DNA of 64,000 bases. It comes from Gordionus sp. m RMFG-2023. Its lineage: Eukaryota > Nematomorpha > Gordioida > Chordodea > Parachordodidae. A program made the position numbers and the translations under genes. The notes under the pieces were generated by a model that had not been told where the DNA came from, did no database searches, and saw only the letters and a list, made by a program, of their open reading frames with translations. Of this stretch, positions 12,948-45,180 are shown piece by piece (position 1 is the stretch's first letter; the number at the start of each line of letters is the position of its first letter). The stretch is taken from the NCBI RefSeq assembly GCF_954871325.1, contig NC_088775.1, forward strand, positions 27,629,561-27,693,560, read 5' to 3'.

Positions 12948-13919
12948 ATTAGCCTCAATTATGATAATCATCTTAAAACTTCCAGTACAAAAAACGAGCC
13001 CTTAGCCCGCTTTTATGGCTACTATCCCACCACTACGAAAGTTAGTGATTTGACCAATCTCTTCCCCCCGTCTCCCACATCCCACCCGGAACCTTTTCAA
13101 ATTACTTCTTCTTTCTCCTTGGGAGAGGCTGAGGGTGGACCATCCACCCAAAATATTTTGACCTCAGATACATTTCAGCAGGCGCCACAGCTCATGACGT
13201 TGTTAGATTCGCGAAAGTGCCCCAACTTTCTTCGGGGATCGTGCAATGACGGACCTACGTTCAGATTCATTCATCATCAGAGTAACGCTTCGATTAACCC
13301 GCCTTTCCACGACCATCGTAACAGTATATGCGTGTACGAATCCACCGGCAAATACCAGTACGTTACGGATTCTTCCGAACTGGACGTTGGCAACCCACCC
13401 ATTAAGGACAGCGATAATGAAGATTCGTTCATGTTGGATGTCGAAAGAAAGCCTATCAGCCTATCCATACCCTCGTCGACCTCCTTTTTCCTGTCGGAGT
13501 TGTCGTCCACCTCTATAACTACCTTTTCGATTTTCTCATCTCTCGTTAAGGCCACCGCCTGCCCAAACAACGCAGAGCTAATAGATCAGATCGGTGGTGA
13601 TATCACCCCAAATCCAGATGCCGTCTCGAATTTCTTAGAATTCAATGATAGGTTTAATTCCGAAAATAAGTGTTTGAAATTTTTATTTCAGAATAACCTA
13701 CTCTTCACATCCAAATATTGTATTTGCGGTTCTATGGCATATTTTTACGAAGACTCGAGAAATAAAATATTCAGATGCTCTAATCGTAAATGTTATAAAA
13801 GGATATCCGTATGGAAGGATACCATTTTTTACTCGAATGGCATAGGGGCCGTCAATATATTTCGCCTAATATACCTATTTTTGGAGAATTATCACGTTTC
13901 GCAATCACAATTGAGAGAA
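12948..13919 (+). CDS. Merlin/ISXO2-derived protein, exon A: CCCH-like finger and zinc ribbon
   Basis: A single open frame runs from just after tctatag (a 3' splice-site-like sequence at 12947) to GAA|gtatat at 13919/13920 (5' splice-site-like). There is no start ATG at its beginning. The first in-frame ATG is at 13194, just before the finger, so an upstream exon is possible. Near 13212-13275 lies KCPNFLRGSCNDGPTFRFIHH, a CCCH-type finger pattern C-x7-C-x5-F-x3-H in which the third Cys is Phe. After a Ser/Thr/Pro-rich linker (about 13280-13560), 13680-13915 encodes the ISXO2/Merlin N-terminal region: a zinc ribbon (YCICGS ... FRCSNRKCYKR) followed by ISVWKDTIF and a helical stretch ending SQSQLRE. 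Base composition is visibly GC-richer than the flanks. No in-frame stop occurs over 972 bp. Confidence 0.7.
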
Positions 13920-16283
13920 GTATATATATATATTATATGTATTTTAATTATACAATTCATAGGCCAGCGGACAAGGTTTACCACGAGCTCATTCACCCGT
14001 GGTTTTAATTTTTTCCAGCCTGCCCTTGACAGACCTCCAATGCACACACTAGGCCTAACGAATAATGTATTTGAATTATTCATATTTTAAAATAAAATAA
14101 TTCACCTGAAAAAATATTGACCGAATATTTTTAAGATTTTTTTTTACATCTAATTTTTAAACGGAAAAAATGTCAATAATCTGATGATAAAGAACAATGC
14201 TCTCAAGTTATTAACAATATGGTGTTGTTTAGAGTTATAATATTTACTTGCACTGAAATAATTACAATCAATCTACATCAGGAGATATTTTGGACATTTA
14301 TTAAGTTATACCAGTATATCAATTCGAAATATACAAATGAAAAATATGAGAATTTTCGTAAGTCGAAAAAAAGCAAAATTGCCTATAATATTTTGAATTG
14401 AATTAAAAATAATTATAAAAAAAATACATATTAAAATTTCATATTTTTGGTTGTAAAAAATCTATTCAAAATGCAAAACACTGTAAATTTTTGTTTACTT
14501 TATTATAAGTATGGCAAAACCTGTTTTCTTTTTCTTCCAAAAAATGCCTTTATAAATATTATTATATTATTCTAAACGTGGGTGAAAATTTTGATAAAAT
14601 ATAGTTTAACATAAATTAGGAGATTCTTGGGAAAAATATCAAGTCAAAATATTAATGTTTCCATGTCCGTATACCACTCGAGGGTTAATTAATTTTTATT
14701 AAATAATAAACAATTTTCAAAGTTAATGTCCAATAAGGCTTGCTAGTTTTTCTCCAAAAACAAGCTTCCCTAGACTAAACGTTCTAGAGGAGCGACAGAT
14801 GTATGAGAAATTATATATTTTTAAAACATGAATTTTAAATTTTGGAAATCATCCTGAGATAAAGTAGGTCAATTTAAATCACCCCAATTTTTTAAAAAAA
14901 ATTATTGATTTATATCAATATTTTTAATAAAATTCTATTTAAAATATTTTTAAAAATGAAAAAGGCTATTTTTGATCAAATTTTACCTAAAATTCCAATT
15001 ATGTTTAATAAAAAATCTAACATTTTATCATTTTCATGGATAAGAAATTTATCAAGATGAAATCCCAAATTAAAAAAAAATATTCAAAGTTTTATTTAAA
15101 TTTTCATTTTTAAAAATATTTTTAAAGAATTTAATTTTCGAATCGAATCCGAATAATGTTTTTATATTCATAATACAAATAAGGAATTGTTCGAATGGTA
15201 TTTTTGTAGGTATAATGTTGATTTTCAGGGTGGTTGGTTACAAAAACAACCATATAATAATAATAAAGTAATTTATATATATTTAAATTTTTTTGAAATT
15301 TTGTCAAATAACCAAACATTTTAAAAATAATTTATGTAATATTTTGTTATAAACAACTGATTCATCCTCAGAAGATAAGGTTAATTGAAACATTTATATT
15401 ATTTTTTAAAAAATTAACCTTTAACAGACAAAAGGGAGGAGAGGGAGAGTTTCTAAAAATGTTAGATTTTTGGGGACATACTAATCAATTGACACAAAAC
15501 TAATTTATTAAGATTCTTTTAGAATATTACCTTACATTTTAAATTGGGTTAATATATCAGAACACCCATTTGGGAAATAATAGTAGCTAAAATTAAAAAT
15601 AAAAAAACATCATTATTTTATAAGCCAAAAAAATAAAATTTTAAAATTGGTTTAACTGTTTTATTTGAGGATATTCATAATAGTATTCGTTTATTCCGAA
15701 TCACTGATATCGACTAGTTAAGTTATATATTAATATTATGCACATATCTAATTTTTGAATCAGCTTTATATGACAATTATCAAATTAGCTTATGACTTAT
15801 CAATATATATTTTTTCCAACAATTTCCTGATGGTCTACTGAAACATTAACCTTTTACTTGCAAGGTAATATTATATTAAGATAAAATTTTTTATAATATA
15901 TAATATTTTTCAATCTAAATCAGCACTTCCCTGCTGACTGAAATACGAGTATTCGATTTAAATCTCGATTTGAATTTTTAAAAATCTATGCCAAACCTAT
16001 AATGAAGATAATGGTTAATGAATGAGAGAGATATATATAAATATTTGATATATTTTTTAAAGGTAACTATTTAATTTTGTCTTTATATTTAAAAAAAACA
16101 TGTTAATTTAATTTATAATGCCGAGCCAATTTTTAATCATTTTTTTTACTCACCGTCCAACTACCAAATTTTATAGTTATTTCCTGCCCGACTATGGTCC
16201 AGTTTCACTACTCACTCACTAATGATAAATTTGGGGTGTGATCACAGTTTTTGTTTTTATAATTTATTACTATAATAAACAAG
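13920..16283 (+). other. probable intron 1 of the Merlin-derived gene (inferred)
   Basis: It starts gtatat and ends aacaag. Joining 13919 to 16284 keeps the frame (phase 0) and gives LRE followed by ATKLSAKTTLSYYKIFRQVC, the order expected for Merlin proteins. The 2.36 kb is A/T-rich. Short open frames inside (for example 14219-14401 and 15131-15319 minus) have no recognisable domain. No complete transposon was delimited. Confidence 0.5.
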
Positions 16284-16575
16284 GCGACAAAGTTATCCGC
16301 CAAGACAACCTTGAGTTATTACAAAATATTTCGCCAAGTATGCATCTATGTAAACGCCAAGGAGTGCAAACCGATAGGAGGTGCGGACAAAACCATAGAA
16401 ATCGGAGAAATTCAGCTCAACAACACTAAATTTCCCAGGAGAGGGAAGCTAAAACCGCCTCAAATTTGGGTTGTAGGGGGTATTTGTCGCGATACAGATG
16501 AATTCTTCCTGGAATTGGTTAGCGAAAGAAATAGCACTGTGCTGACTGATTTGATAAAAAAAAACATATTACATG
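16284..16575 (+). CDS. Merlin/ISXO2-derived protein, exon B: first part of DDE domain
   Basis: Ninety-seven open codons run from aacaag|GCG to CAT G|gttta. The readable core is IGGADKTIEIGEIQLNN, then WVVGGICRDTDEFFLELV, then STVLTDLIKKNI. In ISXO2/Merlin transposases the first block is G-G-x-(G/D)-x-x-(V/I)-(E/Q)-I-D-E with the first catalytic Asp. Here that Asp is Gly (IEIGEI). The remaining blocks match the family strands W-V-F-G-x-I-x-R and the helix before the second Asp. The exon ends in phase 1 exactly where the family continues P-G-(T/S)-x-I-x-(T/S)-D. The matching continuation is found at 44855. Sequence right after 16575 (ttaaattttattttaac) no longer fits the family, supporting a splice site or a breakpoint. 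Confidence 0.7.
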
Positions 16576-16739
16576 GTTTAAATTTTATTTTAACATTTAT
16601 ATTTTCTAAATTCTTCACACCAAGTTGAGTTAATTATTTTTTTGACTGCTAATATCTAGTATTTAATATTAGAATCAGAATTTGTAATATGCTCTTCAAA
16701 ATAAAAATTTTTTTAAGGCTCTTGATCTCTCAAAAAAAA

Positions 16740-17604
16740 ATTTAAGTGAAAATATGGGTGTTGATTTAAATTAAATTTTTAATTAAAAAAAATCTAAACT
16801 TAAATTTGTTTCATACAACCTTCGAGCTATAAGTATTTTATCATTTTGTTATATCAATTTATTTTGTAAATAATTTTATATCAATGTATTTAAATTAACT
16901 ATTTTTGTTATATATGTCGTATTGGGATATAGAATCATGTAGGATTGAATCCCCACGTTTTATTCGGAATTTAAAAAATATTCCGAATCCCCATGAAAAC
17001 AAAATAATATAATTACTCTTTCTTCCCTTTTTTGCCATCTGGCTGGCACCATATAATTAAAAGGCCAAATTTAAAAAAAAGTAATTAGTATAAAATTAAG
17101 GCATATAATGAATGAAAAATAAGGTTAAACATTTTTGTTTTTGTAAATTTATATGAAATATTAAATATTTCCACATGAATATAAATTTTAAAAAAATCCG
17201 AATTAAAAAAAAATTATTTATTGCAACAATTCTTTAATGCTATATGACATTTCGTTGAAATTTAAGGTTGTTCTTGAAACACTAACACCTTTTATTCATG
17301 CAACCCATTTTGCAATTGCATAACGATGGTTTCCCATAGTTTGTGACATTTCCGGAAGCTCCTAAATATTTTTAGCAGTTTAAATAAATAATTATATATT
17401 TTATGTACATAAATTAATTTGAGGAGTATATGTGGTTATTATAAAAATAGCTTAAATTACTTATTATTGATATATCTTTGTTGGGAACTTCAAAATCATT
17501 TAATTTTATAGTTTTATTTTTATATAGACTAGAGGCAATAAATGATGCTGAAATTTTTCCAGCAAACGTTCCTACCCATATTTTGTTTAATTTTTAATAC
17601 TTTC
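16740..17604 (-). repeat. gypsy 3'-end sequence, left inverted copy
   Basis: This is a diverged reverse-complement copy of about 25290-26410. The match covers a Cys-rich coding tail (minus strand, about 17400-17210, reading LCNCKMGCMNK-like but with frame breaks) and the downstream noncoding part (tgttgatttaaattaaattt near 16760). It is interrupted at 17604 by gypsy B and resumes for about 35 bp at 24381-24415. Confidence 0.8.
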
Positions 17605-17944
17605 TGTCAAAAAAAAAGGAGTTCAAATGTTAACTATATCAAAAATTACTAAAACCAACGAAATTCTAAAATATAGAAAAATCTAAAAGAAAAACTAAAG
17701 GAAGCACGGAACTGAAACTTGGATCTATATTTTTATTAAGTCACAGTAAGTAAAAATTCAAAAGTTTTATTATAATTAAAAAAATCATGAAAAATTAAAA
17801 AGTGATTCTTTGTCAAAAAAAAATCAACAACATATTAATTAAAAAATGACTGACATTTCTTTAATTATATACAATTGATAAAACTAATATATATATATAT
17901 AAAAATTGATTGACATTATATTAGAAAATGTCACATTTACGACA
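17605..17944 (-). repeat. 3' LTR of gypsy B
   Basis: 340 bp, TG...CA ends, about 99% identical by eye to 24036-24380: substitutions at the aaaatctaaa/aaaatgtaaa, atatttttatt/atattattatt and tcaacaac/tcaataac positions, plus A-run and (TA)n length changes. Confidence 0.95.
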
Positions 17945-17946
17945 TG

Positions 17947-17959
17947 CCCCCCCCCCTTT
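17947..17959 (-). promoter_or_regulatory. polypurine tract of gypsy B
   Basis: The minus strand reads AAAGGGGGGGGGG, two bases before the 3' LTR start. This is where the primer for plus-strand DNA synthesis is expected. Confidence 0.8.
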
Positions 17960-18175
17960 ATGGGCTGTGGCACGCCTATAAACAAACAAATAAACAAGAA
18001 AAAATAGATATTTTTAAAAGATTTGTCACGGTATATATATTCTGGGACAAAAAAAAATGATCGATATATATCGGTGTTGCATGATCAATCAAATTGCTAT
18101 AGCAGATTTGTAAAATTTTATACAGTCCTTCGATTTTATTTTTAATTTAATAATATCATGATTACCTTAAATATT

Positions 18176-18352
18176 TCAAAAAAAATAGCTAATTTCAATG
18201 TGAATGATTGTGATAGTGAATATAACTATGGGAAATACCAAACTCGAAAGGGACAATAGATATTCCCTAAAGCTTGTCAAATCATCTGCTTCGTTTTCTT
18301 TGTCTGCGATATCCATTCGTAATAAAGAATGTTCATTGCCTAAATTCATCAT
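18176..18352 (-). CDS. small membrane-type ORF in gypsy B 3' region (58 aa), function unknown
   Basis: The minus frame starts MMNLGNEHSLLRMDIADKEN and continues into a hydrophobic stretch (LSSLVFPIVIFTITIIHI) near its end, a likely single transmembrane helix. It lies downstream of integrase, where some gypsy elements carry an env-like gene. It could equally be a chance frame; no env motif is visible. Adjacent minus-strand sequence up to about 18500 is also GC-richer and partly open in another frame. Confidence 0.3.
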   Translation of the reverse strand: MMNLGNEHSLLRMDIADKENEADDLTSFREYLLSLSSLVFPIVIFTITIIHIEISYFF

Positions 18353-19000
18353 TGGTGGTACTGTGGTATTCCTTTGTGGAGTTTTGGGATAACGAAGACG
18401 TTATTATTATAATCGGGTGGTTGTAATTGTTCCGAAAGGTGGAGTGGTGGAGTAAACGATAATTCATGAGCATTGGTTTGATAATCAACTGGACACGAAG
18501 GAGAAACAACTTTAAAAAAAAACTTTACTTAAAAATTTTTATGAATAGAGATCTAGTGGGTATTTGTATGAAAACAAATTATTATAATACTTTTTACAAA
18601 AAAATTATATGAGGAATCTATTATAATATTTTAAAAAAAAACTTATAATATATTTTAAAAAAAAAACTAATAAAAAAAAACTTATATTAATGTATACTTT
18701 TTACAGCGCAAAGCACATTATAACAAACAAAAACTATTTCTCCCATGTGCTTCAATTTTCTCAATAATATTATTACAATATCCCTTGGTGTGAGCGTCAA
18801 GTGAAACAAATAACATAACCTTCTAATTCACTCACGCGAATCCCCCAAAATTAATATTATTCATTACTACTTTTAAAAATAAGTAAGGACAAAAATTGGC
18901 AACCATAGAACTGGGAGAAACAAATATTGAATACATCAACCATCTTCTTACCAAATGTTTAAGTTGATCAAAATTAAAATCACCAACTATTTGAATACCC

Positions 19001-19260
19001 TTAAAAAAAACTTTCTATTAATCTAATAAAAAATAAAAACATCTTTTCATTACACTAAAAAAAAACTTTCTATTGTTTTCATTACACTAAAAAAAAAACT
19101 TTCTATTAATCTAATAAAAGATAAAAACATCTTTTCATTACACTAAAAAAACTTTCTATTCATTTAATAAAAGACAATATGCAAACATCTTTTCATTACA
19201 TTGAAAACAAAACTTTATTTAATAAAAGATAACATTAACACAAATCTGTTATTCATTTAA
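19001..19260. repeat. tandem repeat, about 60-65 bp unit, in gypsy B
   Basis: Four to five partial copies of aaaaaaactttctatta(a)tctaataaaagataaaaacatcttttcattacact, lying between integrase and the 3' LTR. Confidence 0.75.
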
Positions 19261-19312
19261 CAAAACAGACAAAGAACATTCCTTAACGAACCAAACCGAA
19301 GAAAACTTTCCA

Positions 19313-19552
19313 TATCATTACCATGTTGACAAACTTTTTATTAAACCCGTCTACATTGAACTATGATTTTAATCGAAAATGACCAACAACCCGTCTATAT
19401 TGAACTATGATCTTTAATATGACCAAATATATTTCATTACCATGTTGACAAACTTTTTATTAAACCCGTCTAAATTGAACTATGATTTTAACTGAAAATG
19501 ACCAACAACCCGTCTATATTGACATATTTTCAATATGACCAAATATATTCGG
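19313..19552. repeat. tandem repeat, about 120 bp unit, two copies, in gypsy B
   Basis: ccatgttgacaaac begins at 19321 and again near 19440. Each unit itself holds two acccgtcta(c/t)attgaactatg blocks. A C15 run (about 19570-19584) followed by A10 lies just beyond it. Confidence 0.75.
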
Positions 19553-19713
19553 AAACCGAACCCATACGAACCCCCCCCCCCCCCAAAAAAAAAATAAGAC
19601 GCTTCTTATTATCCCAATCTTACATGATCGTGATGACGAATCACAGTCACCCCTGTTATTAACAAAATTTCACTTAATTTCTAACCCCGGTTCAATATGA
19701 CCCGACCCTTTTC

Positions 19714-20430
19714 TCATTTGGTTGCCCGATCGTCAAACAATCGGGCCCAAACCTTTTGTCCCACGGCAAACCGCCCTAATTTTACTTCCATTGAGGTAAT
19801 AGTTTTCTTCTTTGGTTTTAAGAAATCCAAAGGACCCCGTGTTCGCCTACCTAAAAATAACTCGACAGGCGTAACTCCCTCTCGATTACGAGAATTGAGG
19901 TAATATAATTGAGACATGTAAGCCTCCTCTTTATGGGTTCCAGCCTTTTTGATCCAATTTTTAACAATGGCTACCATCCTCTCAGCTTGTCCATTCGAGC
20001 TGGAATGATATGGTGGAGCCATAATGTGTTTTGTCTGTGACTCAACACAAAACTGTTTAAAATCTTCACTGACAAAGGCGCGACCCCCGTCAGACACTAT
20101 CTTGTCCGGAAAACCGAGCATATAATTCTCTTAATTTTTTAACAACAATTTTTGTGGTATATCCATGTACTTCTGCATATTCTATCCATTTAGAATACGA
20201 GTCTACCACTAAAAAATATGTCCTTTTATCAAGATCAAAGAAATCGATGTGGATACGTTCCCAAGGTTTCTTTGATTTAGGCCAAAATTGCCCTACCTCT
20301 TTACGGGGCATAGGGGAACAGGCATTACAAGGAACGCATTTCCTGGTAATCCGTTCAATATCTTTACCCATACCAGGCTACCATACATATTCTCGTGCCC
20401 AAGATTTCATCTTGTCTCGACCTTGATGGC
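19714..20430 (-). pseudogene. gypsy B integrase (two frames, one in-frame stop)
   Basis: From 20430 down the minus strand: AGHQGRDKMKSWAREYVW, then a TAG stop, then GMGKDIERITRKCVPCNAC. This is the HHCC zinc finger, with a Trp codon probably mutated to TAG. The catalytic core follows: PWERIHIDFFDLD (first Asp), then, after a frameshift near 20100, FPDKIVSDGGRAF (second Asp) and YHSSSNGQAERMVAIVK (Glu). The C-terminal part ends FAVGQKVWARLFDDRATK. All three catalytic residues are intact, so few mutations separate this copy from an active one. Confidence 0.9.
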
Positions 20431-20560
20431 CGGCATGCAATAATTTCATAATTTTACTCCGTAATTTATAAGGAATTACGGCCCTGTTTCCCCTCATAAT
20501 ACAATCATCAACAATTGATAATTCTTTCTGTATTTTTTTATATGCATCATATTTGTTTTT

Positions 20561-21987
20561 TTAAGGTTTATCTCCTGATAGACTTAATTTTATCTGACCT
20601 AGAACTTTGTCATTCACAGTATTGGCTTTCAAATCCTCCCAATTTGTAGGACCCCCTTTTAAAATATAAGACAGAGAACGCACTAAGGCCTTCTCTCTAT
20701 CACTTATACTACTATTTATTTCCGGGTCTGCACAGCCAGAACCCAACCTGGACAAAATATCCGGCGAATGATTCTCTTTGCCCCGACGATATCTAACCTC
20801 CACGTTAAAACTGCCCACTAATAATAACCAACGTTGTAACCGGGGAGATAGCATTAACTCCCTATTATCTTTTCGGAATAGGTGGATTAACGGCTTGTGG
20901 TCAGTAAAAATTTCAAATTTTTTACCAATCAAATATTCACGGCATTTCGTCAAACCGAAAATCACGGCCAAGGCCTCCTGTTCAATTACCGAATACCTCG
21001 TTTCGACATCCCGAAAAACTCGGGGAAAAAAAGGATGGGTCTTTCCACACCCTCAATTACATGTAATAAGGCTCCTCCAACACCTTTGTTGGAGGCATCA
21101 ACCGCTAAAATAATTTCTAAATCATTGTTGAAACAGACTAAAATTGGCTCTTCCCCAATTTTTCCCTTTAAAATTTCAAATGCTTCTTGTTGCTCTACTT
21201 TCCAATCGAAATGAACACCCTTTTTTAATAACTCATATAACGGGGCAGCTACCTTCGCAAAATCCTCTATAAAACGATGATAGTAATTTACCATATCCAA
21301 AAAGTACTGCACTTCAGCCTTATTATTGGGCTGCTTCAAATTTAATATATTTTTCAAATTTTTTTGCAATGGCTTCACCTCAATCCCATTTATTTGATGG
21401 CCTAAATATTCGACCTCTATTACGCCCAAAATGCTTTTTTCTTTGCTGGCTCTCAAGCCTTTACCATGAATTCTTTTAAAAACTCCCTCCAGACGATGGT
21501 TATGCTGCTCAGGCGTTATCCCTGTAATTAGCACATCATCCATGTAATAAAATACACCCTCTAGTCCTTGGAAAACGGACGCCATGGTGCGCTGAAAAAT
21601 AGGCGCTGACACACTCAACCCAAATGGTAATCTACAAAAAGCGAACAACCCTTTGGGAGTCGTGATCGTCAATAATTTAAGAATCTCCTCCCTCAAAGGT
21701 AATTGTAAATAGGCTGACGAAAAATCAACCTTTGAAAAATATTTCGCTCCCTTCAACTGGGCCAAAATTTCCTCAATTCGGGGTAAAGGATATTTAACCT
21801 CTACTACCCATCGATTAACGGTTACTCTGAAATCAGCACAGAGTCTCAATTTACCATTTGATTTCTTAACCGGTACCAACGGGGTTGCCCATACACTATA
21901 TTCCACTGGAACAATGATACCATCTTTAACCCATTGATCCAATTCTTCGTCAATTTCCTTTTTCCATTCAAAAGGACTCGACGACAC
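20561..21987 (-). pseudogene. gypsy B reverse transcriptase and RNase H (frameshifted)
   Basis: The frame 21987-20986 carries RT: GIIVPVEYSVWATPLVPVKK, LCADFRVTVNRW, YFSKVDFSSAYLQLPL (first Asp), FCRLPFGLSVSAPIFQR and FYYMDDVLI, a YMDD catalytic motif near residue 150. It continues into RNase H (ILAVDASNKGVGGALLH). The frame is lost at an A7 run (21026-21032) and recovered in 20971-20561, which gives LTKCREYLIGKKFEIFTDHK and SPDILSRLGSG, the RNase H second half. An in-frame TAA ends this frame at about 20561. The single-base slip in a homopolymer could be mutation or assembly error. Confidence 0.92.
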
Positions 21988-22074
21988 GCTAGGAAAATAG
22001 GTGCAAATCCTTCCCTTAATTTTATATCTACTTGATAATCATTAAGACAACCTAATTTGTCTTCGAAAATTATT

Positions 22075-22764
22075 TCATATTTTATGTAATTCATGAATAC
22101 CAATAGCAACCACTGTGGTTTTATCAATGCTAATGTTGTTTTCAACCATTAATTCCGTGGACTTTACATACCTATCAGAATTACGGGTTGAATCATTTTG
22201 TTTTACGGTTAAATCATTCCCTTCTATTTCACGGATATTTTTTCGAGCAATATTTTTAGGTTTAGTCTCGTCTCGGGCTGAACCATTATGTATTGCAAAA
22301 ATATTCCAATAATTACTGAAAGGACCTAACTGAACAATCCAATCCCACCCCATGATGGTTTCCACATCTTTCTTTACTACCCATAAATCTAGGAAAAATG
22401 TGGTATCATGAAGAATTACGCCCAATTTAGTTTTTCCCAAAACTATTATCTCAGACCCATCAAATTGTCTGACACACATAGATTCTTTCTCGAGCTTACC
22501 TTTAGGCCAATACTTAAAATAATTTCTTCGAGACATTATAGAAATGCTAGCCCCTGTGTCGAACAACATGTCAATATCCCTCGAGTCAACTCTTACGATA
22601 ACTCTTGGACAAGGACGAGGTTCGACTAATCTCTCAGTCATTAAAATATCATATGTTTTAATTGACTGATCAATATTAATCTCATTTGAAACATCAGTTT
22701 CATGAGAATTCTCATTTGAACATAAATTCAACTCGGAATTTAGTGGTTCCTTAACAATATTCAT
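22075..22764 (-). CDS. gypsy B aspartic protease region
   Basis: A 229-codon minus-strand frame. The catalytic motif is DMLFDTGASISIMSRRNYF, followed by the flap-like region and IMGWDWIVQLG, which matches the gypsy protease closing motif (I-(L/M)-G-x-D). The catalytic Asp is intact. Flanking segments are charged linkers. The frame does not join RT directly; between 22075 and 21987 two small shifts are needed. Confidence 0.85.
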   Translation of the reverse strand: MNIVKEPLNSELNLCSNENSHETDVSNEINIDQSIKTYDILMTERLVEPRPCPRVIVRVDSRDIDMLFDTGASISIMSRRNYFKYWPKGKLEKESMCVRQFDGSEIIVLGKTKLGVILHDTTFFLDLWVVKKDVETIMGWDWIVQLGPFSNYWNIFAIHNGSARDETKPKNIARKNIREIEGNDLTVKQNDSTRNSDRYVKSTELMVENNISIDKTTVVAIGIHELHKI

Positions 22765-24380: not shown

Positions 24381-24415
24381 CTTTCCCTTCTAAATTTTTA
24401 GGAACAAAATATCTC

Positions 24416-32790: not shown

Positions 32791-32829
32791 TCTATCAAAA
32801 GATATATAATAGATTAAATTACGTAAAAT

Positions 32830-33320: not shown

Positions 33321-33322
33321 AC

Positions 33323-34560: not shown

Positions 34561-35931
34561 AAATAAAAGCTAATTTTAATATGGTTTGACTGAAAGTCGT
34601 CATTCTTGATTTTGATAGGTATGACTTGTTGTGGGGTGTTGGGGTAAGGGTGGGGTATGTGGGTAGGAGTGGGGTGTAAAAAAAATATTTTTTTGATATG
34701 GGTATTAAATAAAAGCTAATTTTAATATGGTTTGACTGAAATTCTTTATTCTTGGTCTTGATGGGTATGACTTGGTCTGGAGTGTAGTGGGGGTGTAAAA
34801 AATAATTTTTTTGATATGGGTATTAAATAAAAGGTAACTAAAATTTTTTTTTTTTGTAATAATAATAATCACTATAGAGGGCGGGTCTAGGTCTTGGAGG
34901 GTGACGAATATTTTTATCAACATAAAATATAGATGTGGGTATCAAATAAAAGCTCATTTAAATATCTTTAGATAGAAATATTTATTTTTTGTCTTGATGG
35001 GTATGACTGCCAGCTCTCAACATATTAACAAAATGTCTAGTTGGATAGAATTTACAGAAATAAAAGAGAATGAAGATTAAACAATTTTTTAAATCTCTTT
35101 TCGTTTCCGATCCTGAACTTGAAATATATAATTTGCAGTGTTCTATTCACGATATTCCATAGCTATTTATTTAGTATCGATATTATCATGCAACATTTTT
35201 TTTAAAAGAGAGATTACGGTAGCTCGATACTAAATAAATAGCCAAAATTATTATAATAATTTTTTAATTAATTATCATTATCTTTTAATTTTATTTTAAA
35301 ATTTACATTTATAAATATGCATTGTAAATATATTTGTCAAAAAAATAAAATTTTTTAAATGTCGACAGTATAGAATGATAATAAAAATGATTTTGGTACA
35401 GATCATATCGACAAAGGAATATCCCTTGAAAATGATGATGATATGGAATTTCCTTTTCCCTAATTACAAATTATTTTAATCTCGATAAAAAAAATTAACA
35501 CAGGATAAATTTTCTGTAAGATGTGGCCGAGGTTTTATCATCAAAAGTTGCTTCAACTTGAGAAAACATTTAAAGGTAATATATCTTTAAAAAAAATTAG
35601 AGCATCTATAATGTTTTTGAGTTAGATGAGTTTATGTGATTTTATGGCCTACTAAACAAGCTATATTTCAACTGGCCATAAGATAGTGCGCTACATTTTT
35701 GAAAATATAGCGATACGCCTTTTTATTTTTATAAAATAGCGGTAAAGCACGCTATTTTTAAAAGTAGCTTTTAACAACATTATAAAATGCTTCCTTTCTT
35801 CTTATCTCCCTCTTTCTCCTTCTCAATTTTAAAATATTTAATTTTCAATAATTTTAATGTCATAATTTATTTTCGTTTTATTTCATTTAATATAATGTTC
35901 ATTATATAGTAAGATTTATTTTTTAGGAAAT

Positions 35932-38900
35932 CAGGGTTTCGAACCGTTTAGTATAACGGTTCGGTTCGTTCCGGTTTTTAGTTTAAAATTTTATAAAGGT
36001 TTTGTTCCATTTCGGTATTTTAAAAAAATAATCATATCGGTTCGGTTCGGTTTATAATTTATAACGGTTCTTTTCGGTTTGTTCCGGTTTTTATAAATTT
36101 AATTTTAAAAAAAATTAATCATTAACCATGTATATATTAATTTTAGAGAAAAATCTTTTTATAATTTCTTATTTAATTTAACCATGAATGATAATCTAAT
36201 AGATATTTTTATTAAACTTAGTAAATATAAATTAGACAAATCAATTCTTTTTATTTCATAAATAAGATAAACACAAACATGCGCAAATACAATGAGGAAT
36301 AAAATAACACATAAATATAATGAAATTTATATTATTTATTTTTAAAAAGAGAATTGGAACGGATAACTAAAATATTTTGTAATATTTCAGGATTTAATTT
36401 AGTTCTTTGCGCAGAGAGTATAAACTTAAGGCTAGAAAATGCTCTTTCTACGGATACCTGCGTAGCTGGAACTGCTAGCACAACCATAGCTAACTTATAA
36501 AGTTCTGGCATACTATTCTTTACATTTTCCCAATAATTCAAAAGATTTGCATCTTTTTCTAATCTCTCTATATTATCAAATGACCGAATTATATACTCTA
36601 TTTCTACACATTTATTATAATTTTCTATGCCCTGAGAACTATTCTTATTAAGGCTTTCATGCGACATTAATAAATCTTCAAAATCATCATCTAAGTTATC
36701 TTTCGAATGTGAACACGTAGGAATAGTATCTAGATTTTCAATATTCTGATTATTTAAATTTTGGATTAAGTTCCAAGTTTTATAAAGATGTTTTTTGGCG
36801 ATATCTTTTTCTTCAAATGATCAAAATACATTATATCTTGGGTCGAGATATATAGCTGAGCAAAAAACTTCATTTTTCAAATTAATCTCTCGTGCTTTGA
36901 TTGTACAAACTAAAAGTTTGGCAAATGAAGTGTCTATTTTGCTAGTTTGCATGATACATTTGATCCATGCTGCATAAAAATCGCCCATGGTCATTTGTTC
37001 ACTTTATATATATTTTGTCAAAATATAAGATGGATATAAAGCTTTTAATATATCACTAATTATTTTCCATTCATTCTCTGACAAACATTTTTCACGATCA
37101 TTACTTTGGGCCGATATTTCTTGGCAAAAGTTTTTTAACTCTAATAATCTTTCCAACATTAAATAGATTGAATTCCATCTTGTGCAACAATCTATTAGTG
37201 GTTTTTTAAATTTAATTTGGACAAAATAGACATTGTAGTCTGATTTCTTATTTTTTTGCAAATGTTTCTTGCTTTATTAATAATAACAATTTCATTTGAA
37301 TTTTTTATGCAATCATTAATTGCTAATTGAAATATGTGGGAGGCACATCTAATGCCCATTAACATGGATCTCGTATGAGGTACAAGATTAATACTTTCAA
37401 TATTAAAAAAAGGTTCTTCATTTTCATTAACAATTATATCATCATTGTTATTTAAATTATCATTATCTAAATAATCATTAAGGATATCATCTTCATCATC
37501 TTCTTCATCATGATGTATTAACAGCTTGATTAATTTAATCATGTTAGCTGCATTGTCTGTGGTTATCGTATAAATTTGATCAATTCTTATTTCATGTTCG
37601 TTTAGAACATCTAGAATAATTTTTTTTAGATATTCTAATGTATGTCTTTCTTTTATCTCTTTCATGCATAACGTTCTTAATTTTATTTCTCCATTATCTA
37701 TAAATTGAATATTGATCCCCAGTATGGACCTATCATATCGAGTTGCAATATCTAATTTTAACGATATAAGTTTTTGGTATATTTCTTTTTTTAAATTTTG
37801 CGAAAAATCAAATGCCATTTTTTTAATATTATTGCGTATATTTTCAGAATTGATGGTATTACCACCCAATCCTACAATTATCGGATCTATAATATTTCTA
37901 AATGCTTTGTCATCAATTGATTTTATTGGTCTCCCATGAACTGTGATTAACTCAGTGCAGGAGCGGATTAAAGTGTCTTTATTAATATTAATTTGTATTG
38001 TATTAGTTTTGGTAAAAGCATTTTGAATTGTATTATGATTATTTGCATTTTTTGTTATTGTTTTTTTAATAGTCAAATTATCTTCTTTTTTTTTAATAAT
38101 TTGAATTCCTTATCGTGGAATCTTTCTATATGTCGTTCAAGATTTGCTGCATGGTCCCCGGTTAAAACTTTACCACAGTTTTCTAGTTTACAAGTAGATT
38201 GATTTTTTACAATATCTAATTTAAAATATGATCGCACAGGATTTGACTTTTCCCGAACCATTTAATAGATACTAATATGCTATATGATGATGAATAGATC
38301 AGAATCTTTTATTATAAAAATAGAATAAATAAATTTCTTAATAGAATCAGTATAATTTTTTATTTATCTTATCTGACAAGATCTCCCCCAAAAACGTGAA
38401 TTATATGCAGGCCTACCCTTCATATAATTATGCCGATTTTTTCCTCAAAGATACTAACAACAAACCTTGTACACAGATGAAACTAAACAAGTGAATGGAG
38501 CTTACTAATACCATTTTAATAAATAATTTGATTTAATAGAGAAAAGAAAGAAGCAAAAAGATAAGATATAAAATAAGAAGAAAAGGCTGTTTAAAATTCC
38601 AAAAACAACTGTTTTTTATTAAAAAATTAAAGTTAATTAAATTAAAACTTTAATGGATACTTTATCATTTTATAATTATCCAATTGAATTTCATGTGTTT
38701 AAATTTTATTTGGTACTATAAGATTTAGAAGGTTAATCAGTAAGTAGTTATTATTTCAAGAAATTATCCACTAAAGTGTAAATGGAAATAAATAAATAAA
38801 TTAACCATAAAATACAGGAATATTAATTAACAATCATATGTTTTTTTTTAATTTCAGAATTCTAATATTCATTTAAGTCATTATAAATTATTCATTATGA

Positions 38901-39449
38901 AAATATTAATTAATAAGAAATTAATATAAAATAGTATTTTATTAAAAGTAATCAGTACCTGATTTTCTTTAGATGTTAGTTAGAATTATGATTTTTCCCA
39001 AATTATTAGCAAGTATTAATAAGCTAATTAATAACTAATATACATATATATATATATAAGATTAAACTGTTAATTTAAAGAATAGTCTTGTTTGATTTTA
39101 AGATTCTTATCTAATTAACTGGTAATTCGCCTAATCTCTATTAAATTGAGTATTTATTAAAGTGAAAAGAAAAAACAATAAACATGGTGGTATTAATTGA
39201 CATGTAAAAAATATTCAATTTGAAAAGAAATAAAGAGTTTAAAAATTTCCCCAAGGAAAATTCAAATTTCAAATTTAGGTTAATAATGTTTAAATTTAAT
39301 TATTTTTTAAAACCGTTTTGAACCGGTTTAAACCGGTTTAAAATATTTATAACGGTTCGGTTCGCTCTTTTTATAGCGGTTACGGTTACGGTTCAGAAAA
39401 TTATAACGGTTCATTCCGGTTTGGCGGTTCGGTTCGGTTCGAAACCCTG
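35932..39449 (-). mobile_element. BED-type hAT transposon (3518 bp) nested in the 8.1-kb element
   Basis: Both ends read CAGGGTTTCGAACCG inward, followed by subterminal aaccg/cggtt repeats on each side (more than ten copies at 35940-36090 and 39310-39445). The transposase is on the minus strand. The adjacent 8-mers, taggaaat and tgattaat, do not match well (4 of 8), so the target duplication has decayed or the ends are off by a little. Confidence 0.88.
36332..38261 (-). pseudogene. BED-type hAT transposase (frameshifted)
   Basis: On the minus strand, 38261-38073 encodes a BED zinc finger (CKLENCGKVLTGDHAANLER then HIERFH). 38076-37195 encodes the catalytic N-terminal half, including RSCTELITVHGRPIKSIDD, KKEIYQKLISLKLDIATRYD and IYTITTDNAANMIKLIKLL (the T-D-N-A-x-N-M motif carries a catalytic Asp), then an acidic insert, then MGIRCASHIFQLAINDCI (C-A-x-H-x-x-Q-L). 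37261-37004 encodes DCCTRWNSIYLMLERLLELK (the T-R-W-N-S motif). 36667-36332 encodes the dimerisation end, VPATQVSVERAFSSLKFIL. Two or more frameshifts interrupt what is otherwise an almost complete protein. Overlap of the first two frames at 38073-38076 could even be close to functional. Confidence 0.9.
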
Positions 39450-39670
39450 TGATTAATGATAAAAATACTACAAACAAAAATGTCTTTCAATTTAAAAAAA
39501 TTTTTATAAAAGGAAATAAAAAGTTAAGATTTAGAATTTTTTTTCTAGTTAATACTTAATTTCAAATTTCTTTTTTATATATTTATAATTCAAAATATTA
39601 ATATTTTTAATAATGCCCCAATTAGTTACCTAAAAATCTTACTGAATATAATATTTTTAAATAAATTCTC

Positions 39671-39889
39671 ATGACAAAAAATTATACAAATATTGATGGA
39701 ATAGATGCCAAACTAAAATCTAAAATTAAAGGACTTTTTTATTTAAAAAATAATACTATAATGTGTTCGAAGAAAAACAAGCCAATTATTATATTGTCCG
39801 AATTGGGTGAAATATTTAAGACACATCACAATGATAAGAATCATACAGGTAAATGTTTATTGAATTACTTTTTATTTGTATTCGAATAA
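39671..39889 (+). pseudogene. possible gypsy integrase N-terminal finger fragment
   Basis: A 72-codon frame with FYLKNNTIMCSKKNKPIIIL and then IFKTHHNDKNHTGKCLL. The H-x4-H spacing after a short strand resembles the first half of an HHCC integrase finger (..H-x3/4-H-x-G). The rest of integrase is absent, so this is tentative. A hAT MITE tip (TTAGAGATCTGCTTCGGG) appears near 40096. Nothing else is called in 39450-40260. Confidence 0.35.
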
Positions 39890-40261
39890 TTTGATTGATT
39901 AAATAAATATTCACTAGTATATTATTAGCATAGTTGAAAAATATTAGAATATTATTTTATTTTCATATTGTAGTTTATTTGATGTTAGTTAAACCCGACC
40001 CAACCCATCAAATTGTGATTATTTTATTTCGGTTTGTCTGAAATTTATTTTTCCATATGGGTTTTTCATCGAATTTAAATTTAATAAATGATATCAATTA
40101 GAGATCTGCTTCGGGATTAATATTTTAAGCATGATCCATTTTTTTTAAAATTTGTTAGGCTCTGCCCTATCCCCAATTTTTTCATATATTTGTCCAGAAA
40201 AACGCAACCCCATATAAAAATTATAAGCCCGCCCGGCTTGGTCCGAATTTATTTAAATATA

Positions 40262-41300
40262 GATACCCCTACCCCCCTAGACCGTCCATTAGGGGGCAGA
40301 GATTCACCTCCAGTTGAATAGATCTTTTGATTAGCTATCGATTGATACCCATATCAAAAAAATTATTTTTTACACCCCCCCCCCCCCCACTCCTACCCCC
40401 TAGACTGCCCATTAGGGGGCAGAGATTCACCTCCAGTTGAATAGATCTTTTGATTAGATATCGATTGACACCCATATCAAAAAAGATTATTTTTATACAC
40501 ACCCCCCTCCCACTCCCACCCCCTAGACCGCCCATTATGGGGCAGAGATTCACCTCCAGTTGAATAAATCATTTGATTAGCTATCGATTGATACCCATAT
40601 CAAAAAAAATTATTTTTTACACATCCCCCCACCCCACCCCCTTACACCGCCAATTATGGGGTAGAGATTGACCTCCAGTTGAATAGATCTTTTGATTAGC
40701 TATCGATTGATACCCATATCAAAAAAAATTATTTTTTACACCCCCCCCCCCCCCCTCCCCCAACCCATCCCCCTAGACTGCCCATTATGGGGCAGAGATT
40801 GACCAGTTGAATAGATCTTTTGATTAGCTATCGATTGATACCCATATCAAAAATAATTATTTTTACACCCCCCCCCCTACCTTTACCCCTTAGACCACCT
40901 ATCATGGGGCAGACATTGACTTCCAGTTGAATAAATCATTTGATTAGCTATCGATTGATACCCATATCAAAAAAGATTATTTTTATACACACCCCCCTCC
41001 CCCCCCCCAACCCATCCCCCTAGACCGCCCATTATGGGGCAGAAATTCACCAGTTGAATAGATCTTTTGATTAGCTATCGATTGATATCCATATCAAAAA
41101 TAATTATTTTTACACCCCCCCCCAGACTGCCCATTATGGGGCAGAGATTCACCTACAGTTGAATAGATCTTTTGATTAGCTATCGATTGATACCCATATC
41201 AAAATAATTATTTTTTTCACCCACCCCCACCCGACCGCCCATTATGGGGCAGAGTTGAACTTCAGTTGAATAGATCTTTTGATTAGCTATCGATTGATAC
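40262..41300 (-). repeat. right subterminal array, about 110-bp unit, nine copies
   Basis: Reverse-complement units of the left array: gggcagagattcacctccag, ttgaatagatcttttgatta, gctatcgattgatacccata, then tcaaaaaaattattttt and C-rich runs of up to about 18 bases. Homopolymer C runs vary most between units. The 72-codon minus frame at 40335-40553 is a translation of repeats. Confidence 0.92.
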
Positions 41301-41529
41301 CCTATACTAGACATATCTTATCTCATAAGGCCAAAAAAACAACATTGAAAATTAAAAAAACGAAACTCGTGGAAAACGCTTTTAAAATAAGATCCTCTTT
41401 ATCACGATTAAAACGTGATAATACCATACCGTATAGTTCTTTATCCTTTAAAAATTGAAATTTTAAAGGGATCCCTTTAAATCCCGTGAAGATCCCGGAT
41501 AGTCATGATCCCTTTAAAAATTACGACAT

Positions 41530-41985
41530 CATTGGTGATTTTATCTGCATAAAAAATCTTCATGATTATCTTACTCCCGTCTATGCTAGCTTACTACTTT
41601 CACTTAGATCTTTAATCAAACCTTATAATAAAGGAGGACACGATTCAAATCTATTAAACCTTTTATTTATTAATTTTTCAGTAAGTCAAAAATAATGTTT
41701 TTTTATTTAAAAAATACAACAAATTTTATCCTATAATTTAATAATCGCCGAAAACATTATATCATCGAAAAATTATATATTTTCACATAAATCATATCAT
41801 TATTATTATTATTTAATTCCGACCAATGATGAAACAAATTTTTTTAAAGAAAATTTAATTTTAATCTTCAATTTTGTGATCTTCAAAAATATTTTAGTCA
41901 AAATTTTTGAGCAAATAAATTTTATACATTTTTTTTTCAAATTCTTATTAGAATGGTCAATATCTATTTTTTTGTTAATTCATTA
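41530..41985. other. A/T-rich spacer, no gene seen
   Basis: No recognisable protein or terminal repeat between the two elements. Confidence 0.5.
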
Positions 41986-41993
41986 AGTATAAT

Positions 41994-43788
41994 TAGAGAA
42001 CTGCAAAGTAATTTTTTCGCAACCCGAGCCCGACCCGAGCCCGAATTTAAAATTTTTTTTTGCCCGACCCGAGCCCGAGCACACATTTTTTAATCCAACC
42101 CGACCCGAGCCCGACCCGAATAAAATTTTGCAATTTAAGTTTTAATATTATAATAACCAAAAAAAAATTTATGTGTATTTATTCAGTTCAGCCACCTTAA
42201 ATAAAAGTTTATTTGACGGCCATAATCTATTCAAGATATATATTAAGTTGCATTTTATTAAATTTGTAAAAAATATTATAAATTTGGTGTTGATATATTT
42301 AGATATACTATGAATATAAATAGATTCCAATTTCTATTGAAAGTGTTTAGATTTGATGATATGAATACAAGAAATACAAGGAAAGCACTTGATAAAGCCA
42401 CACATATTAGAGAAATTTTTGATATTTTTAATGATAATTGCAATAATACTATTCTGTTAGACAATATGTTACTATTGATGAAATGCTTCCTGCATTCAAA
42501 GGAAAATGTCCATTTAGGCAATATATGCCAAATAAACCATCAAAATATGGTCTGAAAATATATGCTCTAGTTGATTCTAGAACTTTTTATACATTAAAAA
42601 CAGAATTATATACTGGCAAAATCAGCCAGAAGGGCCATATAAATTGTCAAACAAGCCATTTGATGTAGTTGAAAGACTAATTCAACCAATTTCAAAAAGT
42701 AATAGAAATATTACAATGGACAATTGGTTTACTATCTATGAATTAGCTAATTATTTAATATCTTCACATTCCCTAACAATAGTAGGGACTATTAAAAAAA
42801 ATAAAAAGCAGTTACCTGCATTATTTTTTAATAAAAAAAGAGATATATATTCAAGTTTATTTGGATCAAAGAAAATACTACTATAGTTTCATATATACCA
42901 AAAAGGTATAAGAATGTAGTGTTGCTTTCAACACTACATTATGATAATAAAATTGATGTAACAACTGGTGAATTGTTAAAACCAGAAATTATCTCAAAAT
43001 TTTACATATTTGATGATTAATATTTTTTTTGATATATGATATTTTTTTATAAAATTTATGTAATTATCATTATTCAACATTGATTTAATAAAATTTGAAT
43101 TTTTTGAATTTTATTTAGTGATAATAAAATAATTAAAGGAAGTACTGAAAAAGAAAATTTTATTTCAGTAATTTTAGGAAAATTTGTCTAACTTTTTTTT
43201 GGAAGTAAATATTAATCTAAGATTTTGTATTTATTATCTCCAATATTTTTTAAATATATACTCAAAATTTTAGATCTCAATTTTTAATATGTTTTGAGAT
43301 ATATCTAATCAAAATTTGGGGTAAAATAGACCCCACCTTTGTAGTTAAGGGAGTTTTTTCTACCTTTGTAGTGAAGGGTTAAAACAAATGTTAAAAAAGA
43401 CAATGTATAGGCTAGATAAATAATAAATAAAACTTACATAAAATATGTCTTATCTTGTAATTTACGAGAAACACAATTTAGTAATAAAATAGTTTGGTAT
43501 CCGGTTGTTAGGTTTATAAAATAATAATTAATAATGACATGACATGTTAATATGATTGATATTTTAATCCTAAAATGTGATAAATATTAAATAATATGAT
43601 TTTATAATTAATATTATAAATTATACTAACTATTTAAGATATTAATATTATTTATATATTTTCGGGTCGGGTCGGGTTTTCGGGTCGGACAGCTTTTACA
43701 ACCCGACCCGAGCCCGAACCCGAGAAATTTTATTTTTGATGTCCGAACCCGACCCGAGCCCGCTACGGACAGCCCGTGCAGTTCTCTT
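41994..43788 (+). mobile_element. 1795-bp element with GC-rich ends, carrying piggyBac-type transposase remnant
   Basis: The ends TAGAGAACTGCA and, in reverse, AAGAGAACTGCA are followed on both sides by (gcccgacccga)n subterminal repeats. A perfect 8-bp duplication, agtataat, lies at 41986-41993 and 43789-43796. The 8-bp TSD points to hAT-type mobilisation, but the protein inside is piggyBac-like. Confidence 0.82.
42310..43015 (+). pseudogene. piggyBac (PGBD-like) transposase fragment
   Basis: Reading across three frames: NRFQFLLKVFRFDDMNTR, then VTIDEMLPAFKGKCPFRQYM (first catalytic Asp), PSKYGLKIYALVDSRTFYTL (second Asp), LSNKPFDVVERLIQPISKS, NITMDNWFTIYELANYLIS (third Asp), VGTIKKNKKQLPALFF and finally KNVVLLSTLHYDNKID. 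The order and spacing fit the piggyBac DDD domain, and all three Asp residues are preserved. At least three frameshifts are present, and the N-terminal region and C-terminal Cys-rich finger are missing. Confidence 0.88.
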
Positions 43789-43796
43789 AGTATAAT

Positions 43797-44340
43797 TACT
43801 TAATTGTTGGTATTATTTTTTTAAATTAACCATTATAAATAATATATCACTAAAATATTTTTTTTCCCTCTCACTTATTTTCACGAATTTACAAAATATT
43901 ACTGGCAATAATTTTATTATTTACTTTACAAAAATACTGGCCAGTTTAATGTCTAATAGATATTTATCATTTTTACCATGAGATGGCCCAATATCGCTTT
44001 TTTTTTACCTATACTGGTAACATAAAAGAATATAAGATATATTTTACCAGTCTTTATTTCTGCAAACAAATTTTTTTGATTTATTTAAGCCATAAAAAAT
44101 GTCTTTCAATATTTATGAATAGGTAAAAAGTGGCTCTTTGTGTAGGTGATTATTATATGAAATTGATGGGATTGAAATCTTTGTATTTTTTTATTCATTT
44201 TTGTTTCGGCTTGGGTTAAGAAATTTATGCTGTCAGAAGAAAACAATGAAACACGAGGAAAATCTCATAAAAGATTTACCAAGGACCTAACCAAGAAATT
44301 GTAATTATTCTGTCAGGTCTTGATCCCTCGGCGAACAAAC
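43797..44340. other. A/T-rich spacer, no gene seen
   Basis: Only short A/T-rich stretches, nothing recognisable. Confidence 0.45.
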
Positions 44341-44369
44341 GTTCGCTTTCTCATTGTTCTAAAAATTTT

Positions 44370-44600
44370 TTAACCCGCTTGCCCGCCCACCCATGTATTT
44401 TCTTTCCTCTCGCCAATATTTAAAAAATATACTGGTTGGGCTCCATATATTATTTTATTTTAATGTAAAATTATGAAATAAAAAAATAATTTTTAATAAA
44501 TAAGGTTTAATTTCGCTCGAAAAATATTTTATAACGCGTACCCGCCCAATGTTTAAAATTTTTTAGCCCAGCCATTACTGACCTCTGACAAGGGCATCAC
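44370..44600. mobile_element. decayed GC-rich hAT-type MITE
   Basis: Contains cccgcttgcccgcccaccca and acccgcccaatg blocks, and ends near gctgggctaa in reverse, with right tip CAGAGGTCAGTAATGG (reverse) at about 44595. The left tip was not found. Confidence 0.5.
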
Positions 44601-44854
44601 TAGCCTTATATCAGGAGACTCAAAAAAATTTTTAAAATTATTTTCAAAATGACCTTCCTTTTTTAGAGAACATTTTCAATAAAAAGACCGTTTTTAACTA
44701 AAAAAAATTCAGGGGACTCGAGCCTCTGTGCACCCCTTCCTCCTCTAGTTATGGTATTGACTAGCTCTAATTTTGACCAGAATCACCTTTGTTCAAAACT
44801 CTTTTATATACAATATTATAAATATAATGTATTTCATAAAATGTTATTTTAAAG

Positions 44855-45180
44855 GTACTACACTCATCACCAATTGTTGGAACGATAATAAAGACCTAGA
44901 TGACATAGATTACACCCTTTATAGGGTGAGCCGTACGCCGAACCCTCCGCTTATTAGTGGGGGAAATTGCGAAGTTAATTTACATACCCATAATATAGAA
45001 ATTTTCTGGGCTCATCTGAAGGCTAACATTGTTAAGCACAGCAAGGACCAGTACATGCAAGATTATTTGAACGCCTACGTATACCGGCAAAAGAGGAAAT
45101 ACCTTGGCACCTTCGACGTCTTTAAATTGTTTCTAAAAGATATCATGTTTTCTTACAATGTTGTGAAAGATAAATTATAA
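44855..45180 (+). CDS. Merlin/ISXO2-derived protein, exon C: DDE domain second half
   Basis: An open frame from aaag|GT ACT to a TAA stop. It reads TTLITNCWNDNKDLDDIDYT, a short linker, then VNLHTHNIEIFWAHLKANI and YVYRQKRKYLG. In ISXO2/Merlin proteins the first block is T-x-I-x-(T/S)-D-C-W with the second catalytic Asp; here it is Asn (ITNCW). The family's H-T-x-x-I-E-x-x-W-x-x-(L/F)-K block with the third acidic residue is intact (NIEIFWAHLK). The acceptor leaves two bases (GT) that complete the split codon CAT-G|GT-ACT after 16575, giving H-G-T-T as the family requires. It is GC-richer than its surroundings and uninterrupted. Whether it is joined to exons A and B or is a separate copy needs transcript evidence. 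Confidence 0.65.

Follow-up and report, generated by a model that had tools for sequence, protein, structure and literature searches.

A candidate domesticated host-transposase fusion gene, joining part of a CCCH zinc finger gene duplicate to a Merlin transposase, in the hairworm Gordionus

Can three open segments with similarity to a Merlin transposase, the last of which lies 28 kb from its neighbour, form one gene, and what would such a gene encode? The question is raised by a locus of the parasitic hairworm Gordionus sp. m RMFG-2023 (phylum Nematomorpha), found in a 64-kb stretch of a 287-Mb assembly of 267 contigs (G000:C1:27,629,561-27,693,560, hereafter the window), which is AT-rich (GC content 0.274) and contains many transposon pieces. 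Judging from the sequence, we consider it reasonably probable that the locus is a domesticated host-transposase fusion gene, encoding a non-catalytic protein of the DNA-binding type. The fusion, the one DNA match of each exon, the lost catalytic residues, the open frame, the junctions and the intron content are read directly from the sequence.

Gene model and predicted protein

The gene model comprises the following features of the window, where P0004 is a predicted database protein that uses the same joins.

12948..13919, plus strand: exon A, inside a 380-codon open stretch, ending at the donor GTATAT
12948..13613, plus strand: host-derived part of exon A (codons 1-222), copied from the N-terminal region of a CCCH gene of ZC3H10-like type, 43% identity
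13614..13625, plus strand: linker of four residues (codons 223-226) separating the host and Merlin parts
13626..13919, plus strand: Merlin part of exon A, profile positions 10-106 from codon 230, with a zinc ribbon (C-x-C ... C-x4-C) and the start of the helix-turn-helix (HTH) region
13920..16283, plus strand: intron 1, 2,364 nt, GT...AG, join used by P0004
16284..16575, plus strand: exon B, the rest of the HTH and the first half of the RNase H-like domain, profile positions 106-206
16576..44854, plus strand: intron 2, 28,279 nt, with nested transposons, join used by P0004
44855..45180, plus strand: exon C, the second half of the RNase H-like domain, profile positions 199-305, stop TAA at 45178-45180
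44974..45021, plus strand: in-frame GT..AG segment of exon C absent from P0004, 48 nt or 16 residues, whose loss removes the catalytic-Glu motif

Joined, the three exons give 529 codons with zero stops and zero frameshifts, and both introns have GT/AG edges (GAGAA/GTATAT at 13920, AACAAG/GCG at 16284, CATG/GTTTAA at 16576, and TTTAAAG/GT at 44855, the slash marking the boundary). The longest open stretch in 60 Markov-simulated 64-kb sequences has 163 codons, compared with 380 around exon A, and the open frame is therefore not made by chance. The GC content of exons A, B, and C (0.425, 0.408, and 0.380) exceeds that of the window, and the third codon positions of exon C reach 0.472, compared with 0.298 and 0.246 in the flanks.

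P0004 has 514 residues, is recorded as "unnamed protein product [Gordionus sp. m RMFG-2023]," and belongs to a cluster of 4 member sequences on 1 contig. It consists of a methionine followed by exons A, B, and C minus 16 exon C residues, and both proposed junctions are matched to the base. The junction edges and phases given in the initial annotation (phase 0 for the first intron and 1 for the second), as well as its statement that none of the three exons has a frameshift or stop, are reproduced. Its main alternative, that exon C belongs to another decayed copy, does not appear to hold, as exon C has one DNA match, continues the Merlin profile, and is joined in P0004.

The one extra start methionine of P0004 implies a further 5' exon, which was not located; the window has 14 upstream ATG/GT sites, none of them distinguishable.

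The host-derived front part

Only about the last 98 codons of exon A are Merlin; the 222 codons at its start are not. This front part is a copy of the start of a paralogue in the same genome, a 710-codon open frame (G000:C1:44414186-44416318) 16.8 Mb from the fusion gene. The paralogue has three CCCH fingers, matched by zf-CCCH in three stretches (49.8 bits), as well as a bZIP-like coiled coil too weak to reach the cut-off. We take it to be ZC3H10-like from the layout of that family. A genome search with the paralogue returns only itself and exon A of the window (residues 7-246, 43% identity). Host homology stops at GDITPN, where positions 13584-13613 are 90% identical in DNA to the paralogue; comparing the paralogue with the window at E <= 1 gives residues 11-242 only, leaving finger 3 and the coiled coil without a match. 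The GC content of exon A steps from 0.470 in codons 1-207 to 0.345 in codons 208-324. CPSF4, also considered as the zinc finger source, was dropped for the 710-residue paralogue, its E-value of 1.9e-5 being summed over four weak fingers with a best single i-E of 2.1.

The Merlin part begins close to the fusion point. The methionine of two open stretches of hairworm Merlin loci (L001 and L014) aligns with codon 227, and a near full-length transposase therefore starts four residues after the host part; the methionine of three other relatives aligns with codon 225. From the sequence, the gene is a host-transposase fusion, with the host segment and Merlin in one frame.

The fingers are damaged in the fusion protein. 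By eye, Phe replaces the third Cys of finger 1, and one of the four ligands of finger 2 remains, so that fingers 1 and 2 retain 4 of 8 CCCH ligands, and finger 3 is absent. The zf-CCCH match of the fusion protein stays below the Pfam cut-off (13.9 versus 20.5 bits). Upstream, window positions 5001-12947 and the stretch upstream of the paralogue have nothing in common at E <= 0.001. The sequence AG/CCTCAATTATGAT, common to the two loci, may be the true acceptor.

The Merlin part and its copy number

A Merlin profile built from 66 relatives was run on the 1,331 six-frame open pieces of at least 25 codons in the window. The only matches above the threshold are exon B (82.5 bits, profile positions 106-206), exon C (36.5 bits, 199-305), and exon A (34.4 bits, 10-106), and two further pieces with E-values of about 0.5 are noise. 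The joined exons score 174.7 bits over positions 10-305 of the 347 in the profile. The joined protein passes the Pfam cut-off of DDE_Tnp_IS1595 (Pfam ID PF12762; 31.1 versus 27 bits), which no single exon piece reaches alone. The initial annotation had described the three segments as successive parts of one Merlin domain, and their openness and order stand, but its view of exon A as entirely Merlin fails on the 222 host-derived codons. Similarly, its proposal of a Merlin-derived host gene is supported in that there is one spliced gene with one DNA match per exon, but the proposal missed the fusion with a ZC3H10-like duplicate and the loss of two catalytic aspartates described below.

Searched as DNA against the 287-Mb genome, with very common words skipped, each of the three exons gives one match. 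The protein search, in which 84 of 102 candidates were scored, returned 85 rows: 4 for this gene, 1 for the paralogue of the front part, and 80 covering the Merlin part only. The latter, several of which are pieces of one element, have 29-40% identity, except one with 59% over 27 residues, and 74 have E-values of at most 0.001. A Pfam family search of the genome found two further places, both with internal stops. Judged by these searches, Merlin is a repeat family in the Gordionus genome, but the fusion gene is not among its recent copies.

With the window protein alone as a query, homologue searches reached only P0004; the Merlin family was reached after adding a typed Merlin row with intact motifs. 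The relatives are the best 120 of 5,527 matches to a query whose intact motifs favour intact DDE (Asp-Asp-Glu) enzymes, and the two alignments, A2 and A3, took in 66 and 60 of the 119 relatives listed. The zf-CCCH domain is absent from the 25 of 32 families listed for 61 Merlin members. In a tree of the exon B region (108 columns), the window gene groups with nine hairworm Merlin rows (support 95/92), on a long branch. In a separate analysis its branch measures 7.37 compared with a median of 0.24, which is too long for dating.

The AlphaFold2 (AF2) model has a predicted local distance difference test (pLDDT) score mostly above 80 across the Merlin part of exon A. Fold searches return mainly the integrase core, evidence of the fold and not of the function, and the top Foldseek TM-scores are low (0.11-0.20 by query), probably in part owing to the modelled disorder of residues 1-213. 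A PDB sequence search with the whole protein gave nothing useful (best E-value 0.93).

Lost catalytic residues and missing element ends

Two of the three catalytic residues are replaced. The first Asp is Gly in exon B (IEIGE), where all 66 aligned relatives have Asp, and the second is Asn in exon C (ITNCW), where 65 of 66 have Asp. The third acidic residue, Glu, is kept in exon C (HTHNIE), as in 64 of 66 relatives. Conservation in at least 90% of the relatives is seen at 77 Merlin columns, of which the window gene keeps 39 and the relatives 53-77 (median 76). The sample of 66 favours intact enzymes, a bias from which the hairworm copies, taken from another search, are free: the first motif reads IEIDE and the third HTQ..E in 9 of 9 hairworm frames covering each motif, and the second-Asp motif is TD[SK]W in the four copies listed (L001, L002, L014, and L016). 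These motif counts refer to seven copies (L001, L002, L014, two in L015, L016, and L017); L009 lies within L015, and L010 and L011 were left out. From its residues, the transposase of the fusion gene looks catalytically dead, and the loss of two catalytic aspartates argues strongly against a working transposon.

Mobile Merlin elements are present elsewhere in the genome. Inverted repeats ending in GG and exact 8-bp target duplications were found in 4 of the 5 elements examined, with the following extents and duplications within their loci.

L001, 905-2665: target duplication AAAAATTC
L002, 895-2683: target duplication GAAATATT
L014, 2542-4762: target duplication TTTTTAAA
L017, 2937-5203: target duplication AATCATTT

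The fifth, L016 (2155-4146), has inverted repeats without a matching duplication. Locus L015 holds two divergent Merlin copies (C5:22318424-22318852 on the minus strand and 22319107-22319400 on the plus strand), whose matched stretches lie 254 bases apart. The transposase genes of L001, L002, L014, and L017 appear to carry short introns, of about 40-50 nt in L001 by eye; its two putative introns lie, also by eye, about nine residues downstream of those of the fusion gene and are not at the same positions.

Beside the window gene, no Merlin terminal inverted repeats or target duplication were found. Two hairworm Merlin end sequences match its flanks with at best 5 and 4 mismatches, compared with 4-5 and 3-5 in 10 shuffles each, and comparing flank against flank gives nothing better than an E-value of 0.024. 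Whole-element Merlin matches at 32.8-33.3 kb of the window were rejected as AT-rich low complexity. Dispersed exon copies surrounded by terminal inverted repeats, which the initial annotation had named as grounds for abandoning the gene, were not found.

Frame maintenance and selection

The host part aligns with the paralogue over 220 codons with 96 identical residues, a Ks of 1.37, and a Ka of 0.43 (synonymous and nonsynonymous divergence), and the differences at the three codon positions are 0.36, 0.32, and 0.51. The resulting pairwise Ka/Ks is 0.31 (bootstrap 0.18-0.45), a value for the N-terminal part only and not near 1, the value that the initial annotation had named as refuting its proposal. 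We estimate that a Ka/Ks of about 0.55 would be expected if the copy were neutral and the paralogue strongly constrained. For exon B, the codon-position differences from the hairworm copies in L014, L001, and L016 are about 0.48, 0.38, and 0.67, which is too diverged for a ratio.

At high divergence, neutral simulations rarely leave the frame open. For the host part, 0 of 500 runs were stop-free at the observed distance, 1 of 500 at half, and 8 of 500 at a quarter of it. Letting the whole coding sequence drift to 38 changes in conserved columns left 0 of 300 runs stop-free, with a minimum of 8 stops; at 19, 10, 5, and 2 changes, 0, 7, 31, and 132 of 300 were stop-free. The frame was therefore probably maintained for most of the divergence, as far as the sequence can tell, and its maintenance may have ended recently.

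Proposed origin and rival explanations

We propose that a duplicate of the ZC3H10-like CCCH gene was fused, in frame and directly behind the residues GDITPN, with an almost complete Merlin transposase of the hairworm type, and that the resulting gene would be spliced from a 5' exon and exons A, B, and C. Selection would have kept the frame open while both catalytic aspartates (D to G and D to N) and the intact CCCH fingers were lost, and later transposon insertions would have extended intron 2 to 28 kb and left the gene unbroken. By sequence, nuclease and CCCH activity are probably gone, leaving the zinc ribbon and the HTH. The product would be a non-catalytic nuclear protein, whose retained zinc ribbon and HTH might bind DNA, possibly at sequences related to Merlin ends, and which might serve as a regulator or compete with the Merlin copies that are mobile in this genome. 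What we infer here is the expression of the gene and the function and target of its protein, and DNA-binding regulation as the role of the protein is a tentative suggestion, made by analogy with SETMAR and other fusion genes (see below). We regard as doubtful, though worth stating, the more specific idea of a domesticated trans-acting controller of hairworm Merlin elements, in which a dead transposase still recognising Merlin ends, together with part of an RNA-binding-type protein, would be kept for restraining or re-using mobile copies.

Several points weigh against a domesticated, DNA-binding protein. The gene is known here from its sequence and the predicted protein P0004, and DNA binding is suggested by the parent family only. 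Damage to both functional cores, the CCCH ligands and the DDE residues, would also be expected of a gene whose function is being lost. The Ka/Ks of 0.31 is near saturation (Ks 1.37), pairwise, restricted to the host part, and includes the constraint on the intact paralogue. P0004, which was used in the NCBIfam comparison in place of the full joined protein, scores below the cut-offs of PF12762 (18.5 versus 27 bits) and of the prokaryote model for IS1595 (NCBIfam ID NF033547; 22.3 versus 75 bits). The 16 residues that it lacks belong to the RNase H-like fold, which is thereby interrupted, and the AF2 model is weak there (pLDDT 46-61). Against the general consensus, the donor of exon B (GTTTAA) is weak, and so is the acceptor. 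The exon B tree depends on 108 columns and a long window branch, and no orthologue was found outside Gordionus, with only P0004 among 992 and 300 candidates and none among the matches listed for the Merlin-row search.

The main rival, which we hold to be unlikely but serious, is a young pseudogene, i.e., a once-working fusion whose maintenance stopped recently and which has not yet gained stops. The loss of half of the eight ligands of fingers 1 and 2 and of two of the three catalytic residues, the changes in 38 of 77 conserved Merlin columns, the very long branch, and the 28 kb of insertions in one intron would all suit such a decay. Against it stand the 529 codons, free of stops and frameshifts across the three exons, the GT/AG edges of both introns, the neutral simulation, in which 10 conserved-column changes already left just 7 of 300 runs stop-free, and a Ka/Ks whose upper bootstrap value (0.45) is below the roughly 0.55 that we would expect for an always-neutral copy. 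It is improbable, in our estimate, that exons A and B alone are expressed and read into intron 2, giving a shorter protein with the host part, zinc ribbon, HTH, and half of the RNase H fold and leaving exon C as a relic. The frame does continue for 17 codons beyond exon B (stop at 16626-16628), across a donor that is weak by the general consensus and ahead of a long intron, but exon C is open, in phase, has its one DNA match, is joined in P0004, and has a third-position GC content above both flanks.

The two remaining explanations fare worse. Transduplication, the capture of a host gene fragment by a mobile Merlin element, is very improbable: Merlin elements with 8-bp target duplications do occur in this genome, but each exon has one DNA match, no second copy was found, the catalytic residues are lost, and no flanking terminal repeats above chance were found. 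That unrelated decayed Merlin pieces were aligned by chance is hardly credible; other pieces exist in the genome (the 80 further rows), but the exons share strand and order, cover the profile contiguously with matching phases, and are joined exactly in P0004, and the 64 kb hold no other Merlin piece above the threshold. A domesticated fusion gene remains the reading that we favour.

Intron 2 and other repeats of the window

The initial annotation ascribed the length of the second intron to nested insertions, and indeed 22,793 of its 28,279 nt (about 80%) lie in four element spans, the first of which is interrupted by a further element.

17075..25824: terminal-inverted-repeat element, arms of about 530 nt, 87% alike, interrupted by the gypsy element
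17605..24380, minus strand: gypsy-type long terminal repeat (LTR) retrotransposon, LTRs at 17605-17944 and 24036-24380, 5-bp duplication CTTTC, RVT and zinc-knuckle domains
26527..28108: element with inverted repeats, the arms 83% alike
28415..32778: element with 119-nt units in inverted tandem arrays at its boundaries
33433..41529, minus strand: hAT element with a hAT dimerisation domain and inverted repeats of about 1.2 kb holding tandem arrays of about 117-123-nt units

The alignment of the two gypsy LTRs has 4 mismatches over 339 bases and a further 7 gap columns, and this insertion is therefore recent. If all four spans are insertions, the older intron 2 would have had at most 5,486 nt. 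A transposase fragment matching DDE_Tnp_1_7 (37 bits), presumably of the piggyBac type, also lies in intron 2, at 42262-42555.

Outside the gene, an element at 61303-63659 has inverted repeats of 15/29-nt tandem units around a 260-codon open frame, which has no Pfam match. Inverted repeats built of tandem arrays are thus seen in three elements of the window (28415-32778, 33433-41529, and 61303-63659). Direct repeats about 56-58 kb apart lie near the window ends (5002-5402 and 60899-61296, 95% identical; 5394-5731 and 63664-64000, 99% identical), and a palindromic 188-bp element (12431-12618; arms of 81 nt, 88% complementary) lies about 330 bases upstream of exon A.

Comparison with known systems

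Both parents of the fusion have relatives in one assembly, namely, the ZC3H10-like gene, which is intact, and Merlin elements with retained catalytic motifs and target duplications. The steps of transposase capture are therefore testable in an animal phylum, Nematomorpha. The locus also illustrates a gene whose frame stayed open while nested insertions lengthened one of its introns to 28 kb. Should the protein be a controller of Merlin elements, it would be, among the open-access matches listed, the first case of Merlin co-option in an animal for which the host donor gene is identified. No Merlin-CCCH fusion occurs among the matches listed by titles and abstract openings in the open-access literature on Merlin, fusions, and hairworms, and a term search of a fungal co-option screen (PMC10799480) gave no mention of Merlin or IS1595.

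Like members of the Merlin superfamily of DNA transposons and of IS1595 (PF12762), the gene has a zinc ribbon, an HTH, and an ISXO2-like RNase H domain, and it groups with the hairworm Merlin copies. Unlike them, it has lost two of three catalytic residues, has large introns and an extra host segment of 222 residues, has one DNA match per exon, and has no terminal repeats or target duplication that we could find. Merlin elements are described, in the relevant part of one survey, as having terminal inverted repeats that start with GG and an 8- or 9-bp target duplication (PMC8101967). Compared with the Gordionus ZC3H10-like gene, the first 222 fusion codons are homologous (43% identity), but the fusion lacks finger 3 and the coiled coil and has damaged fingers 1 and 2.

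The transposases of KRABINER, SETMAR, and CSB-PGBD3 are labelled mariner or piggyBac. All three are named among host-transposase fusion genes in PMC12062965, and SETMAR, which contains HsMar1, is described as binding the inverted repeats of its transposon (PMC8327481). As in these genes, a host gene segment is joined in frame to a transposase in Gordionus, but the transposase is Merlin, the host part comes from a CCCH protein and its fingers are damaged, and the function is putative.

The domestication of Merlin and its occurrence in chimeras have both been suggested before: candidate domesticated Merlin proteins of the protists Stentor, Symbiodinium, and Perkinsela have preserved frames, no terminal repeats, and in some cases an altered DDE, and the nematode Caenorhabditis brenneri has a candidate Merlin-WD40 chimera (PMC8101967). 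The Gordionus gene resembles these cases in its preserved Merlin frame without terminal repeats, in its altered DDE, which some of them share, and in being a chimera, as one of them is. It differs from them in that the paralogue of the host donor and the fusion point are identified, and in that Merlin elements of the same genome are available for comparison.

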